DNA of 33,371 bases, taken from the IMG/VR virus record IMGVR_UViG_3300035703_000287, positions 1 through 33,371 of that record; one strand, 5' to 3'. The DNA comes from a virus. Numbering within the stretch: the first letter of the stretch is position 1; each line of letters begins with the position of its first letter. Shown one piece after another: positions 24,774 to 27,960 of this stretch. The position numbers and the translations under genes are program-made. A model generated the notes under the pieces. It did no database searches. It saw nothing but the letters and a program-made list of their open reading frames with translations, and had not been told where the DNA came from.

Positions 24774-24989
24774 CTAGTCGTTCTCAGGATCTCCCATATT
24801 CGCTGAGATAGCCGCTGAGGCGTACTTGTGAAGTGTCATCCGGCTAATACCGCTCAGTTCAGCAATGCGCGTGATGCTCATTCCGTTATCTCTGGCCTTC
24901 ATTGATTCAGCGATGAGATCCGCATAGGCGAGATTCGTTTGCTTGACTAATGACTGATGCCTTCGTGCGGCATCCTCTAGGCGGCTCAC
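24774..24989 (-). CDS. Small helix-turn-helix protein
   Basis: The 71-residue protein has a helix-turn-helix at about residues 36-56 (GMSITRIAELSGISRMTLHK) preceded by a helical charged region. It overlaps the prim-pol gene start-to-stop by 4 nt and closes the operon. It resembles the DNA-binding tails of resolvases or small regulators. It could give prim-pol its DNA specificity or repress the operon. Confidence 0.65.
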   Translation of the reverse strand: MSRLEDAARRHQSLVKQTNLAYADLIAESMKARDNGMSITRIAELSGISRMTLHKYASAAISANMGDPEND

Positions 24990-25447
24990 TTCAGCACCAA
25001 CGCAGCGAGGCTCGCGGGAAGCGTGATCGGGTCCATGCTGTCCATGTCGTGATAGGCGATGCCTTCAGGATGAATGCTCGGGGGAGCGACTACGTAGCCG
25101 TTGTACTTTACGTCGATGCCGTCACCGAGCTTTCCACGCACTGGCCCTAATTGCTCGGTGCGGTAGTAGAGGTGGAATCCGTCAGCGGTCCCTACTGCGT
25201 GCGTTGCCGGAAGGGAATTGACTAAGGCGAGATCCGGCTGATTGCGGTAGTCAACGTCAATGATGATCAGGCCGGACGGTGCGCAGGCAATGCCGAGATT
25301 CCCACCGTCAGGCCAGGAATCAATGACTCCGTGATCCTTCGTCGCGCTCTTGTAACCGGCTGGAGCGTAGCGCGGGTTCGGTTGCTTGCTATGCGGTGCG
25401 AGCGGGAAGACAAGCCATCCGCGCTCTGCGTAGTCGTGTGCGTTCAT
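24986..25447 (-). CDS. Stand-alone prim-pol (bifunctional DNA primase/polymerase N-domain)
   Basis: The 153-residue protein has the AEP/prim-pol motifs: YAERGWLVFPLAPHSKQP at the start, IIIDVDYRN with D64 and D66, DGFHLYYR with H92, and GIDVKYNGYVVAPPSIHP with D112. Many relatives are fused to a helicase, while here the catalytic domain stands alone. GGGAGGA precedes ATG 25447. A T-arm-like element sits just upstream. It may prime phage DNA synthesis or serve another template-dependent role. Confidence 0.82.
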   Translation of the reverse strand: MNAHDYAERGWLVFPLAPHSKQPNPRYAPAGYKSATKDHGVIDSWPDGGNLGIACAPSGLIIIDVDYRNQPDLALVNSLPATHAVGTADGFHLYYRTEQLGPVRGKLGDGIDVKYNGYVVAPPSIHPEGIAYHDMDSMDPITLPASLAALVLK

Positions 25448-25472
25448 TCTGTTCCTCCCTAGTTATGTTACG

Positions 25473-25520
25473 TTGCGTGCGCTCTGCGGAGTCGAACCGC
25501 AGCGGGGACCGTCAGCGCGA
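25473..25520 (-). ncRNA. T-arm-like structured element, copy 1
   Basis: On the minus strand GCGCT pairs with AGCGC, enclosing an 11-nt linker (GACGGTCCCCG) and a hairpin with stem CTGCGG/CCGCAG and loop TTCGACT. The hairpin has the canonical tRNA T-loop GTTCGAxTC. It lies 5 nt after the stop of the upstream gene and before the prim-pol ribosome site. It is one of three equally long copies (48 nt) at intergenic junctions. Confidence 0.75.
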
Positions 25521-25525
25521 GATGA

Positions 25526-25723
25526 TCAGCGACGTTCCGCTGACCATTCGGCATTTGCTCGGTTGCGAGCCGTTGCAAGATTGTTGTGGCGCGAGATCGT
25601 CACATACTTGCACTGCTCATTCATTCGGATGACGCTATAAACCTCTGACTGCTCAATGATGCCGATCCTGAAACCATGGCCAGTCTCGGCGCTCTTGATG
25701 AGTCGAATACCGTTTGCGTTCAT
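25526..25723 (-). CDS. Small protein, first gene of prim-pol operon
   Basis: The 65-residue protein starts MNANGIRLIKSAETGHGFRI. I chose ATG 25723 because GGGAGGA lies 6 nt upstream, where an earlier in-frame ATG has no such site. It is alpha/beta and without recognised motif. The promoter is about 40 nt upstream. Confidence 0.6.
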   Translation of the reverse strand: MNANGIRLIKSAETGHGFRIGIIEQSEVYSVIRMNEQCKYVTISRHNNLATARNRANAEWSAERR

Positions 25724-25759
25724 TTGGTTCCTCCCGGTTGCTGTCGTTGTCATGTCTTA

Positions 25760-25788
25760 ATTATGAGTTCCTAGACATAGGGTGTCAA
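25760..25788 (-). promoter_or_regulatory. Promoter of the prim-pol operon
   Basis: On the minus strand TTGACA (25783-25788) and CATAAT (25760-25765) are 17 nt apart, a near-perfect sigma-70/SigA promoter. The same TGTAAATGGCTTGACA and TAATTAAGACAT blocks recur at the second minus promoter (27404-27451), so both are probably controlled together. The reverse reading TGTCAAG resembles the end of the cluster A mycobacteriophage stoperator. Confidence 0.8.
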
Positions 25789-25803
25789 GCCATTTACAAG
25801 GAT

Positions 25804-26232
25804 TCATGGAACTAAATTATTGCAGCCATGGCCGCCCGACCAATGGCGCCAGCCGCGAGGAATGAGGATCACGAAGACGAATGCGGCATCCTGATACTTC
25901 TCAGCCCAACGCTTTATCGGCTTGGAATGAAGCTCGCTGAGGATCGCCATAGCCTCTCTACGGGGCATCCCTGCGTCACGCAGACGTGCGTAGACGTTCC
26001 AGCCTGCGCCATGTCTCCAATGATTATCGAGGAATTGATACTTTCCCTGTGCGCTACTGACCGGGTTCTGCGCTTTAGGGTTCCCGTGGCTCTCGCGATT
26101 CGCGACACATTCAGCGAACGGACGCCATCGAACGGGGATCTCTGCCGCCTGGCTGATCGCTCTGGCTGGGAGGCTTGCGGGTGCTTCTCTGGGGATCATC
26201 ATTGCTGCTGCGAAGACTAGATTCTCAATCAT
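25804..26232 (-). CDS. Lytic transglycosylase / Rpf-like lysozyme-fold protein
   Basis: The 142-residue protein has a short hydrophobic start (MIENLVFAAAMMIPREAPAS), possibly a signal. It then has FAECVANRESHGNP with E47 as the likely catalytic glutamate, SSAQGKYQFLDNHW, and RGWRHWSGGHGC near the end, typical of actinobacterial Rpf/transglycosylase-like domains. It may act on host wall at entry or lysis. Its start is ambiguous (ATG 26232 or GTG 26247). It lies apart from the plus-strand lysis cassette, in the control region. Confidence 0.65.
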   Translation of the reverse strand: MIENLVFAAAMMIPREAPASLPARAISQAAEIPVRWRPFAECVANRESHGNPKAQNPVSSAQGKYQFLDNHWRHGAGWNVYARLRDAGMPRREAMAILSELHSKPIKRWAEKYQDAAFVFVILIPRGWRHWSGGHGCNNLVP

Positions 26233-26282
26233 GATTTGTCCGATCACTCGGGGACAGGGACGGCGCACGATGGGCGCAAGAG

Positions 26283-26345
26283 CCGGAATCGCACCGGGTC
26301 AACTGAAATGACCATACCATCATCCTGTGGGATGGTTCATGCTTG
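26283..26345. other. Hairpin-rich leader between transglycosylase and whiB
   Basis: The divergent gap 26233-26387 holds three adjacent inverted repeats: CCGG/CCGG around AATCGCA, GGTCA/TGACC around a 7-nt loop, and ACCATC/GATGGT around 9 nt. On the minus strand the middle one mimics a tRNA anticodon arm (loop TTTCAGT) and the first one a short T arm. Arm lengths do not add up to a real tRNA. A regulatory leader or operator is possible. No clear promoter boxes were seen. Confidence 0.35.
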
Positions 26346-26387
26346 CTGAATTAATCATCTGTGTTGTCCTCCTGACGATGGCAGCGC

Positions 26388-26639
26388 GTGGCCGTGGCTA
26401 AGCTCAAAGATCTTTGGATCGAGCGAGCCGCGTGCATAGGGAGTGATCCCGAAATGTGGTTTGACCATGAGCCGCAATCAGCAGCGCACAAGATGGCGGT
26501 AGTTATCTGCCTACGTTGCGAGGTTCGCCGGCAATGCTACGTCTCAGCGATAGAGCGGCGTGAACGCTACGGTATCTGGGGTGGCATGGACTTCACTCAC
26601 CTTGATCGCAGGCGCAGAAAAGCCCCGATCAATTTCTGA
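26388..26639 (+). CDS. whiB-like: WhiB-family transcriptional regulator
   Basis: The 83-residue protein has the four WhiB cysteines (C16, C41, C44, C50; spacing C-x2-C-x5-C in ICLRCEVRRQC) that bind a [4Fe-4S] cluster, followed by the GIWGG turn and a basic C-terminus (RRRRKAPINF). WhiB proteins are known only in actinobacteria and their phages, where they bind the main sigma factor and redirect transcription. Start is GTG 26388 or 26394; neither has a strong ribosome site. It is convergent with the minus operon. Confidence 0.9.
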   Translation: MAVAKLKDLWIERAACIGSDPEMWFDHEPQSAAHKMAVVICLRCEVRRQCYVSAIERRERYGIWGGMDFTHLDRRRRKAPINF

Positions 26640-26649
26640 CCGGGGCTTT
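26619..26649. terminator. Bidirectional terminator between whiB and minus operon
   Basis: AAAGCCCCG (26619-26627) and CGGGGCTTT (26641-26649) make a perfect 9-bp stem with a 13-nt loop. The left arm overlaps the whiB 3' end. On the minus strand the stem is followed by TTTTCTG, so it terminates the minus operon as well. It separates genes ending at 26639 and 26657. Confidence 0.8.
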
Positions 26650-26656
26650 CCTTCTG

Positions 26657-26815
26657 CTACTTGAAGTTGATCACTTCAACCCTGAGGCCGAGCGACTCGA
26701 AATCCTGGCGCAACTTGCCGAACCTCTTGAGTGAGGTTGAGAGCTGCGTAAACGGGATCTCAGTCTTCGGCATCGCGAGGGTGAAGATGACTGTCTTCTG
26801 ATTTTTCTTGCTCAT
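26657..26815 (-). CDS. Small basic protein, 52 residues
   Basis: ATG 26815 has AAGGAG upstream on the minus strand. The product starts MSKKNQKTVIFTLAMPKTEI and ends LRVEVINFK, basic and without recognised motif. It is the last gene of the distal minus operon and follows element copy 2. Function is unknown. Confidence 0.6.
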   Translation of the reverse strand: MSKKNQKTVIFTLAMPKTEIPFTQLSTSLKRFGKLRQDFESLGLRVEVINFK

Positions 26816-26840
26816 TGCGTTCTCCTTTTTGGTCGGGATG

Positions 26841-26888
26841 TTGCGTGCGCTCCGGAGAGTCGAACTCCGGCGAAGACCGTCAGCGCGA
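26841..26888 (-). ncRNA. T-arm-like structured element, copy 2
   Basis: GCGCT/AGCGC encloses the linker GACGGTCTTCG and hairpin CCGGAG/CTCCGG with loop TTCGACT. Relative to copy 1 the T-stem differs, with pairing kept, and the loop, outer stem and trailing ACGCAA are unchanged. It lies 6 nt after the stop of the upstream gene and before the AAGGAG site of the next. Confidence 0.75.
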
Positions 26889-26894
26889 GCCTTT

Positions 26895-27080
26895 CTAGTC
26901 GTTGATGATGTGCGGCCCGAAATCCGTTCGGGAGGGGCAGTCAAACCCGCTCAGGCCGCTTTCGGTAGTACCGCCGTTGCCCTTCGCGGTGTCGAACAGT
27001 GCGCCATCCTCGGCGAGATCGGCCATAAGGTTTGCTCCGCAATCGACGCAGACTAGATCGGTGATGATGTTGTAATTCAT
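26895..27080 (-). CDS. Small cysteine-motif protein, 61 residues
   Basis: ATG 27080 has GAGGAG upstream. The protein has CVDCGANLMADLAEDG, with a C-x2-C-G knuckle at residues 11-14, and a third cysteine at about residue 48 in FDCPSRTD. It may bind zinc. It is the middle gene of the distal operon. Function is unknown. Confidence 0.6.
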   Translation of the reverse strand: MNYNIITDLVCVDCGANLMADLAEDGALFDTAKGNGGTTESGLSGFDCPSRTDFGPHIIND

Positions 27081-27108
27081 TGCTGTCTCCTCTGTGTAGT
27101 TGGGTTCC

Positions 27109-27156
27109 TTGCGTGCGCTTCAAGGAGTCGAACCTTGACTGAGACCGTCAGCGCGG
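27109..27156 (-). ncRNA. T-arm-like structured element, copy 3
   Basis: GCGCT/AGCGC encloses linker GACGGTCTCAG and hairpin TCAAGG/CCTTGA with loop TTCGACT. This stem shares little sequence with copies 1 and 2 yet pairs perfectly. It lies 6 nt after the stop at 27163 and before the GAGGAG site of the next gene. Length is again 48 nt. Confidence 0.75.
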
Positions 27157-27162
27157 GTGGTG

Positions 27163-27372
27163 CTATGAAGCGAAATATTGTTTAGCGCCCTCGCACTCCT
27201 GATCTACGTTGAACCGCTCTGAGTTGGGGATACGTCCGCAGGAGATGCAGCTCTCAACGAGCAGGCAGTTACCGACTGAGAACGGGCCACCGCAGGGGGC
27301 GAGGCCCTCGCAGGTGGGGCAGTAGTGGCCGTGGACGGTGGGGATGATTGCGGCGGTGGTGGTGGTGTTCAT
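27163..27372 (-). CDS. Small cysteine-rich protein, 69 residues
   Basis: The product starts MNTTTTAAIIPTVHGHYCPT and contains CPTCEGLAPCGG and CISCGRIPN, so it likely binds zinc through C-x2-C pairs. It is the first gene behind the second minus promoter. AAAGGAT lies upstream of ATG 27372. Function is unknown. Confidence 0.6.
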   Translation of the reverse strand: MNTTTTAAIIPTVHGHYCPTCEGLAPCGGPFSVGNCLLVESCISCGRIPNSERFNVDQECEGAKQYFAS

Positions 27373-27411
27373 TTGGGGATCCTTTGGTCGGTTGCTCTCT
27401 CTTATGTCTTA

Positions 27412-27441
27412 ATTAAAGCATCCCCGGACTAGGGATGTCAA
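27412..27441 (-). promoter_or_regulatory. Promoter of the distal minus operon
   Basis: On the minus strand TTGACA (27436-27441) and TTTAAT (27412-27417) are 18 nt apart. The flanks TGTAAATGGCTTGACA and TAATTAAGACAT match the promoter at 25760-25788. The gap to the plus gene at 27553 (27442-27552) also holds a GTCCTAC/GTAGGGAC imperfect hairpin (27509-27534), possibly plus-strand control. Confidence 0.75.
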
Positions 27442-27552
27442 GCCATTTACAGGTATTCCCGTAATTATTTTTCGGGGGTCAGACTAGACAACTCTCGGTC
27501 AGGGGAGTAGCGTCCTACCTGTCCCCAAAGTAGGGACTCAACTAGGGAGGAA

Positions 27553-27960
27553 ATGATGAGCAATCCATTAGCACTCGATCCCTGCCCGAGCTGCGAGCAG
27601 ATAGATCAATGCTACGAACCCGCGTGCATCTGTCCGGTTTGCAAGGATGACCCCCGAGCATTCCCGGCGTGGGAAGCATTAGCGCCAGTCATGCGACGAC
27701 TCAACGGTGCAGGCATACACTGGAATTGGGGCATCGACTCAATACATCTTGACGGCCCGGCTCGTCACTATCTGGAAATCAATGGCCGCGACATTTGGTA
27801 TGAAATCCACTTAAAGGCGGATCGTTCATTCATCGTCGAAAAGGTCTTTATTACCAAGGCATTCAATTCGGCCGGCGAAGTTGATTCAAAGATCGTATAC
27901 GACGGTTCATCAGATGTGCTCGCGGCTATCGCCATCGACTTTGAGGAGGAATCATGCTGA
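27553..27960 (+). CDS. Cysteine-rich small protein, first gene of the recombination block
   Basis: The 135-residue protein starts MMSNPLALDPCPSCEQIDQC and then has CICPVCKDD, giving three cysteine pairs in the first 30 residues, likely a zinc finger. The rest is alpha/beta (HYLEINGRDIWYEIHL). AGGGAGGAA lies just upstream. It heads the plus-strand block of recombination and modification genes. Confidence 0.6.
   Translation: MMSNPLALDPCPSCEQIDQCYEPACICPVCKDDPRAFPAWEALAPVMRRLNGAGIHWNWGIDSIHLDGPARHYLEINGRDIWYEIHLKADRSFIVEKVFITKAFNSAGEVDSKIVYDGSSDVLAAIAIDFEEESC

Follow-up and report, generated by a model that had tools for sequence, protein, structure and literature searches.

The RNAs closest to the phage elements reported here are mascRNA and menRNA, which form the tRNA-like 3' ends of the eukaryotic nuclear lncRNAs MALAT1 and NEAT1. 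They are about 58 nt long and include a D-hairpin, an anticodon-like stem, and a 7-bp acceptor. mascRNA is the tRNA-like site at which RNase P ends MALAT1, and its elbow, which consists of two guanines and the T-loop, is read by both RNase P and RNase Z (PMC11693755). In mascRNA and menRNA, the guanines are docked in a UUCRA-type T-loop, RNase P cuts on the 5' side and ends the upstream RNA, and maturation through RNase P, RNase Z, and the addition of CCA has been demonstrated.

The mini-tRNA elements described here share with these RNAs a tRNA-like shape lacking a working anticodon. They contain the same pieces of the elbow, which probably dock in the same manner, and we propose for them the same role in ending the upstream RNA. 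In contrast to mascRNA and menRNA, they are 40 nt long, have neither of the two additional arms, and are repeated between protein genes. No family in Rfam 15 matches them at threshold. The nearest model is mascRNA-menRNA (RF01684), which scores 26.2 bits with a copy from phage Joe and 15.9 bits with a copy from the window (the whole 33,371-bp stretch of DNA that was analysed), compared with a gathering threshold of 42.5; a resemblance and not membership is claimed.

Several other systems are similar in part. Synthetic RNase P minihelices also consist of an acceptor stacked on a T-stem with a T-loop, and lack D and anticodon arms (PMC11143913). However, these constructs carry a 3' CCA and no linker GG, whereas the natural phage element retains the GG and avoids CCA. 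In the tRNA punctuation of polycistronic mitochondrial transcripts and with plant mitochondrial t-elements, tRNA-shaped elements at gene junctions also set mRNA ends; the t-element and the mirror tRNA are cited in PMC4919922. Those systems are organellar and rely on real tRNAs or on larger RNAs of tRNA-like shape, whereas the phage element is minimal, is not a tRNA, and belongs to DNA phages. We take the tRNA-like domain of tmRNA to be another similar structure, in which a D-loop-like GG segment docks to the T-arm without a D-stem, and which is an RNase P substrate. Unlike tmRNA, the phage element is tiny and has no mRNA-like domain, tag reading frame, or CCA, and a tmRNA model matched just its 17-nt T-arm (13.7 bits).

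Nor do the elements have the layout of a tRNA gene, because a linker of 10-11 nt stands in place of the D-stem and anticodon arm. ARAGORN found neither a tRNA nor a tmRNA in the window, and its calls overlap only 8 of 308 hits of our structural scan over all loci, most of the 8 being real tRNAs. tRNA callers nonetheless sometimes misread these elements, and one copy in phage Endor2 is annotated as tRNA-Arg. Among known phage repeats, stoperators, SAS/ESAS, and the 18-bp repeats of Microbacterium phages are likewise multicopy, intergenic, and oriented with transcription (PMC3029335, PMC7302621), but they are short DNA or ribosome-site motifs without a tRNA fold, and none has been described as tRNA-like. 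We found no paper or Rfam 15 family that describes the elements in a search that left bioRxiv preprints and most subscription journals outside its reach. The elements are real, structured, and widespread and, as far as this search shows, undescribed, although an earlier description is possible.

Structure and covariation of mini-tRNA elements

The window is an IMG/VR virus record that encodes terminase and HK97-type capsid genes, and its terminase region has no match to phages by blastn. We inspected positions 25000-27600 of the minus strand. This strand of the window contains three exact matches to the pattern GCGCTGACGGTC-N10-TTCGACT-N6-AGCGC (Table 1), for which the chance expectation is 0 (100 dinucleotide-preserving shuffles). 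In each element, an outer stem of 5 bp is followed by an 11-nt linker whose GG is invariant, and then by a T-stem of 6 bp that ends in a canonical T-loop, UUCRANY. The original prediction, made from this DNA alone, described three copies without indels in which GCGCT/AGCGC is constant and the T-stem sequence differs yet pairs; indeed, the match is exact at all three sites, and all three T-stems are fully paired. Both stems are present in the minimum-free-energy fold of 3/3 copies, and these folds are not more stable than those of shuffled sequences (z = 0.79, 0.07, and -0.04). Because the folding energy is ordinary, the case rests on conservation and covariation and not on stability.

Table 1. 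Coordinates of the three mini-tRNA elements and neighboring features in the window
Feature	Position	Strand	Details
Copy 1, mini-tRNA element	27115..27154	-	Exact pattern; model R2 E 2.8e-7
Copy 1 outer arms	27154-27150; 27119-27115	-	GCGCU; AGCGC; tail ACGC next
Copy 1 linker	27149-27139	-	GACGGUCUCAG
Copy 1 T-stem	27138-27133/27125-27120	-	UCAAGG/CCUUGA
Copy 1 T-loop	27132-27126	-	UUCGACU
Copy 2, mini-tRNA element	26847..26886	-	Exact pattern; model R2 E 4.1e-8
Copy 2 outer arms	26886-26882; 26851-26847	-	
Copy 2 linker	26881-26871	-	GACGGUCUUCG
Copy 2 T-stem	26870-26865/26857-26852	-	CCGGAG/CUCCGG
Copy 2 T-loop	26864-26858	-	
Copy 3, mini-tRNA element	25479..25518	-	Exact pattern; model R2 E 1.2e-7
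Copy 3 outer arms	25518-25514; 25483-25479	-	
Copy 3 linker	25513-25503	-	GACGGUCCCCG
Copy 3 T-stem	25502-25497/25489-25484	-	CUGCGG/CCGCAG
Copy 3 T-loop	25496-25490	-	
Gene upstream of copy 1	27163..27372	-	69 aa; no Pfam/PHROG match
Gene between copies 1 and 2	26895..27080	-	61 aa; no Pfam/PHROG match
Gene after copy 2	26657..26815	-	52 aa; no Pfam/PHROG match
Gene upstream of copy 3	25526..25741	-	71 aa; no Pfam/PHROG match
Gene after copy 3	24986..25447	-	Primase/polymerase N-terminal domain (Prim-Pol), PF09250, E 9.1e-28
Promoter-like site TTGACA-17-CATAAT	25760..25788	-	11/12 consensus positions; consensus match only

Relatives were collected with the pattern GACGGTC-NNNG-NNNN-GGTTCGANTCC, which leaves free every pair of the outer stem and four of the six in the T-stem, and which matched 65 IMG/VR loci and 20 GTDB loci. 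Pooled with the matches of a narrower pattern, these yielded 87 distinct cores, and both stems were judged to be present in 79. The 8 non-folding cores (background or tRNA-like) were left out, as were cores with a one-base insertion, for the sake of a clean alignment; 42 diverse sequences remained. Among these, pairing is found in 99.0% of cells in the outer stem and 100% in the T-stem, and two-sided compensatory changes occur at all 9 pairs left free by the pattern. The covariation score is 0.844, in comparison with 0.172 in shuffled alignments and no more than 0.197 after the pairing partners are shifted by 1-3 columns, and because the totals include two flanking, usually unpaired columns, these figures are conservative. 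Selection on RNA structure, which had been proposed from the three copies, is thus strongly supported by covariation in two stems.

An independent search agrees. Covariance model R2 was built from 29 sequences with the window's linker class excluded, and yet its hits in the window are exactly the three copies (E values in Table 1), with no further match below E = 10. The three elements are genuine and belong to a large family of phage-borne structured RNAs. This family does not behave as DNA repeats would. Small phage genes might be shuffled by recombination sites or mobile repeats, and these too could be multicopy at gene boundaries in mosaic phage regions, but nearly every stem base differs between copies while pairing is kept, and the orientation of the elements tracks transcription; this explanation is largely refuted, and we give it next to no weight.

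The linker reveals a second constraint. A structural scan that required the T-loop (UUCRANY), the T-stem, and the outer stem, and that left free a linker of 7-20 nt, was the sole use made of the loose-pattern matches listed, which are very noisy. Its distinct hits number 174 for linkers of 11 nt, every one of which contains GG, and 98 for linkers of 10 nt, of which 95 do, with at most 16 hits for any other length; because the scanned loci were fetched by patterns with fixed linker lengths, these counts are not a census. Linkers fall into the classes GAYGGUCNNNG (that of the window), RAYGGCAUACG, AYYGGCAGRCA or AGNGGCACACA, and AAYGGUUYUNG, of which the third is absent from every search pattern used. 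The GG and T-loop stay constant while the remaining linker switches class, although UUCRANY in every element is partly a matter of the scan, which required it. The earlier ideas of a canonical T-loop and of a GG that completes an elbow are therefore both strongly supported, and docking of the GG into the loop is the probable structural explanation.

In tRNA, the acceptor and T-stem together comprise 12 bp. Of 128 non-redundant elements, 77 have a helix that reaches 12 bp and the other 51 one that stops at 11 bp when its extension is limited to 12 bp; without this limit, lengths of up to 13 bp occur. A coaxial helix resembling acceptor and T-stem, proposed at 11 bp, is thereby strongly supported at 11-12 stacked bp. 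The stem sequence is unconstrained across elements, and several flanking positions are not. In the same 128 elements, R73 is found in 87 and C74 in 102 (p about 1e-36), whereas C75 is depleted (12; p about 2e-6), CCA at 74-76 occurs in just 2, and the nucleotide at -1 is A or C in 92. Five named phages also have a second, sequence-variable hairpin 2-6 nt past the helix in 33 of their 42 copies; the excess is weaker over a wider set of elements, and the window has no such hairpin.

Location at gene junctions and distribution in phages

In the window, the first paired base lies 8, 8, and 7 nt past the upstream stop codon, and the next ATG lies 34, 31, and 31 nt past the element, for copies 1, 2, and 3, respectively. 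The original placement at gene junctions thus stands, but the proposed distance of 5-6 nt from the stop becomes 7-8 nt, the copies as first drawn having begun 2 nt further out. A promoter-like site (Table 1) precedes the two-gene unit that contains copy 3.

The same arrangement recurs among relatives. Among 104 distinct elements, 55 begin 5-12 nt past the end of a same-strand ORF, compared with 2.6% of random positions, and 4 lie at this distance from the end of an antisense ORF. Deposited gene coordinates of phages Joe, Send513, Konstantine, and Caliburn allow gaps to be compared: 37 copies are on the coding strand and 0 on the opposite strand, and of the gaps listed, elements occupy 34 of the 48 that measure 70 nt or more and 0 of the 51 that are shorter. 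In these four phages the distance from stop codon to element is clustered at 6-16 nt (median 9), although some copies are more than 100 nt past the upstream stop, and the distance from element to start codon is mostly 25-58 nt. Multicopy loci have all copies on a single strand in 52 of 53 cases; the one other locus is that of Gordonia phage Morgana, whose genes lie on both strands. Distances show no preference for a reading frame (20/16/15), and read-through of the stop codon or translation of the element was rejected. An excess of UAG stops in the redundant set disappeared once redundancy was removed.

A GC-rich structure soon after a stop codon might also be an intrinsic terminator or attenuator that lacks a U-tract. 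U-less terminators have reportedly been found in the early region of phiC31, but the phiC31 genome has no copy of the element, and a relation between the two was rejected. Moreover, a terminator has no need of an invariant T-loop, GG, or linker length. The elements have no U-tract (0-3 T in the 10 nt past the element) and were not called by a terminator scan, and most downstream genes start within 25-58 nt, which leaves little space for a new promoter. Termination at gene ends is therefore an improbable function.

More than 100 IMG/VR contigs carry relatives, and so do about 150 actinophages that have been isolated, among them Streptomyces phages Joe and Caliburn and Mycobacterium phages Send513 and Konstantine. 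One region of a relative matches 165 phage records, nearly all of Streptomyces phages. By blastn, single elements match 142 and 152 phage records, with hosts Streptomyces (113), Mycobacterium (24-25), Microbacterium (9), Gordonia (4), and Arthrobacter (1), and among the matches listed there is almost never an annotated feature under the element. The elements are unannotated in the phage records that we checked. Joe has nine copies and Send513 twelve, all on the transcribed strand. This generality beyond the three copies in the window is new in the present analysis.

Models R1 and R2 rarely match cellular genomes, and a bacterial or archaeal host gene was rejected as the source. With strict filters, each matches 3 of 397 Actinomycetota genomes; among 297 genomes of Bacteroidota, and likewise among 197 from the Natronomonas phylum, R1 matches a single one, the seed genome. 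The lone haloarchaeal hit has both stems and is only a candidate for a viral copy.

A possible role as RNase P substrates

We propose that the element is a mimic of the tRNA elbow that directs cleavage of polycistronic phage mRNA by RNase P, and assign this reading a probability of about 0.62. The original prediction was the source of the RNase P hypothesis, which is now considerably strengthened, though unproven. The outer stem, serving as acceptor, would stack on the T-stem to form the 11-12 bp helix, and the linker GG would dock into the T-loop, so that the tRNA elbow is rebuilt with neither a D-stem nor an anticodon arm. The RNase P of the host might then recognize the elbow and the helix length and cut on the 5' side of the outer stem, which would leave the upstream mRNA with an end 6-10 nt past its stop codon and the downstream mRNA with a structured 5' end, the mini-tRNA. 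After cleavage by RNase Z, the downstream mRNA would instead begin beyond the element. RNase Z may cut on the 3' side of the element and eject a mini-tRNA of 40-44 nt; avoidance of C75 and the second hairpin of several phages would fit such a cut, and this hairpin could shield the new 5' end.

Known properties of RNase P are consistent with this proposal. The enzyme reads the elbow and measures from it to the cut site (PMC4919913), and the elements have the 11-13 bp coaxial helix capped by an elbow that is expected of its natural substrates. RNase P RNA cuts acceptor/T hairpins, and a hairpin with just these two arms is a proven substrate (PMC11143913), in agreement with the original prediction. 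The RNase P protein contacts nucleotides -8 to -3 of the leader, and mycobacterial pre-tRNAs often have C at -1 (PMC12710915). The spacing between stop codon and element would supply a single-stranded leader of about 8 nt for these contacts, and a spacing of about 6 nt or more would place the helix just outside a ribosome terminating at the stop. Elbow and length, on which RNase P relies, are thus kept, whereas the anticodon, D-stem, and CCA have been lost; what synthetases read is dropped. Other observations count against the proposal. Bacterial substrates of RNase P have a 3' RCC(A) motif, of which the elements retain just a part, with C74 conserved but C75 avoided. Some copies lie more than 100 nt past the upstream stop, the folding energy is ordinary, and the window has no second hairpin.

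Recognition of the elbow is not peculiar to RNase P; RNase Z and other factors share it (PMC11693755, PMC4919913). The mimic might instead serve RNase Z alone, the CCA-adding enzyme, an enzyme that modifies tRNAs, the ribosome, or an RNA-binding protein encoded by the phage through which the genes on either side are controlled in their stability or translation. Any such elbow binder would select the same shape, avoidance of C75 and CCA is as expected of an RNase Z substrate, and a place about 8 nt past stop codons and 31-53 nt ahead of start codons could serve translation. However, C74 is strongly conserved and is not needed by RNase Z, no aminoacylation or CCA end is encoded, and phages of unrelated hosts carry the element, which argues for a universal host factor and against a single phage protein. 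On balance, recognition by such a factor in place of RNase P is rather unlikely. Perhaps the freed mini-tRNA acts in trans by occupying host tRNA-handling enzymes, with punctuation as a side effect, since mascRNA is freed as a stable tRNA-like RNA (PMC11693755) and phages have up to about a dozen copies. A trans-acting RNA, though, has no need of such tight placement in gene gaps, and many loci have a single copy, which makes a decoy very improbable.

An extension of the RNase P proposal is more tentative, and we consider it somewhat less likely than not to hold in full. It posits mRNA punctuation across phyla of DNA viruses, namely in unrelated phages of Actinomycetota and Bacteroidota and perhaps in haloarchaeal viruses (one hit), by a minimal 40-nt elbow mimic at junctions between early genes. 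Cuts on both sides, made by RNase P and RNase Z of the host, would eject mini-tRNAs and leave one mRNA with defined ends per gene.

Implications for phage gene expression

If cleavage by RNase P is indeed the function, phages use a nuclease that every bacterium must keep, by way of minimal tRNA decoys, to cut their operon transcripts. The elements would then be the counterpart in bacterial viruses of mitochondrial tRNA punctuation and of 3'-end formation of MALAT1. They would also account for gaps of about 90 nt that bear no annotation in some 150 sequenced phages, laboratory phages of M. smegmatis and S. coelicolor among them, and would provide hundreds of natural minimal RNase P substrates with which the requirements of the enzyme could be probed.

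Possible terminator and upstream sequences of the window gene groups

The mini-tRNA element, a 40-nt RNA at phage gene junctions, occurs in two gene groups of the window. The small-gene group with copies 1 and 2 is followed, 3' of its third small gene, by a strong GC hairpin and TTTTC that by eye resemble an intrinsic terminator; this hairpin suggests that the unit ends there. An ohsC_RNA match at the hairpin is sub-threshold. Both element-bearing groups are preceded by a similar minus-strand stretch, TGTAAATGGCTTGACA...AATTAAGACAT. The PF06737 match of the ORF between them is weak (E 3e-4, under the cut-off).

Features in the window and in other element-bearing loci (L-numbers)
Feature	Location	Strand	Basis
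GC hairpin, then TTTTC	window 26616-26680	-	by eye; GCCCCGGTCAGAAATTGATCGGGGC
Upstream stretch, first	window 25797-25753	-	sigma-70-like promoter match, 11/12
Upstream stretch, second	window about 27450-27400	-	resembles first stretch
ORF between gene groups	window 25804-26226	-	PF06737, transglycosylase-like
tRNA-Arg over element	L321 3470-3552 (Endor2 MT711979 44378-44460)		existing annotation
tRNA-Ser over element	L031 1231-1314		ARAGORN
Candidate element	L075 3756-3795		GG linker, both stems present

Elements in other contigs

In 33 of 42 copies from Joe (L320), Send513 (L322), Konstantine (L325), Morgana (L326) and Caliburn (L327), a second hairpin begins 2-6 nt past the mini-tRNA helix. 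Its sequence varies, and in these five phages it lies directly 5' of the ribosome site; the window has no such hairpin. Long GGCRNGGC-like arrays (GGCAAGGCATGGC...) adjoin the element in one group of GC-rich virus contigs (L030, L031, L039, L044, L045, L051, L061 and L063). The sole haloarchaeal match is the candidate in a contig of Natronomonas sp. CBA1123 (L075). The tRNA-Arg and tRNA-Ser calls that overlap elements look like false tRNA genes.
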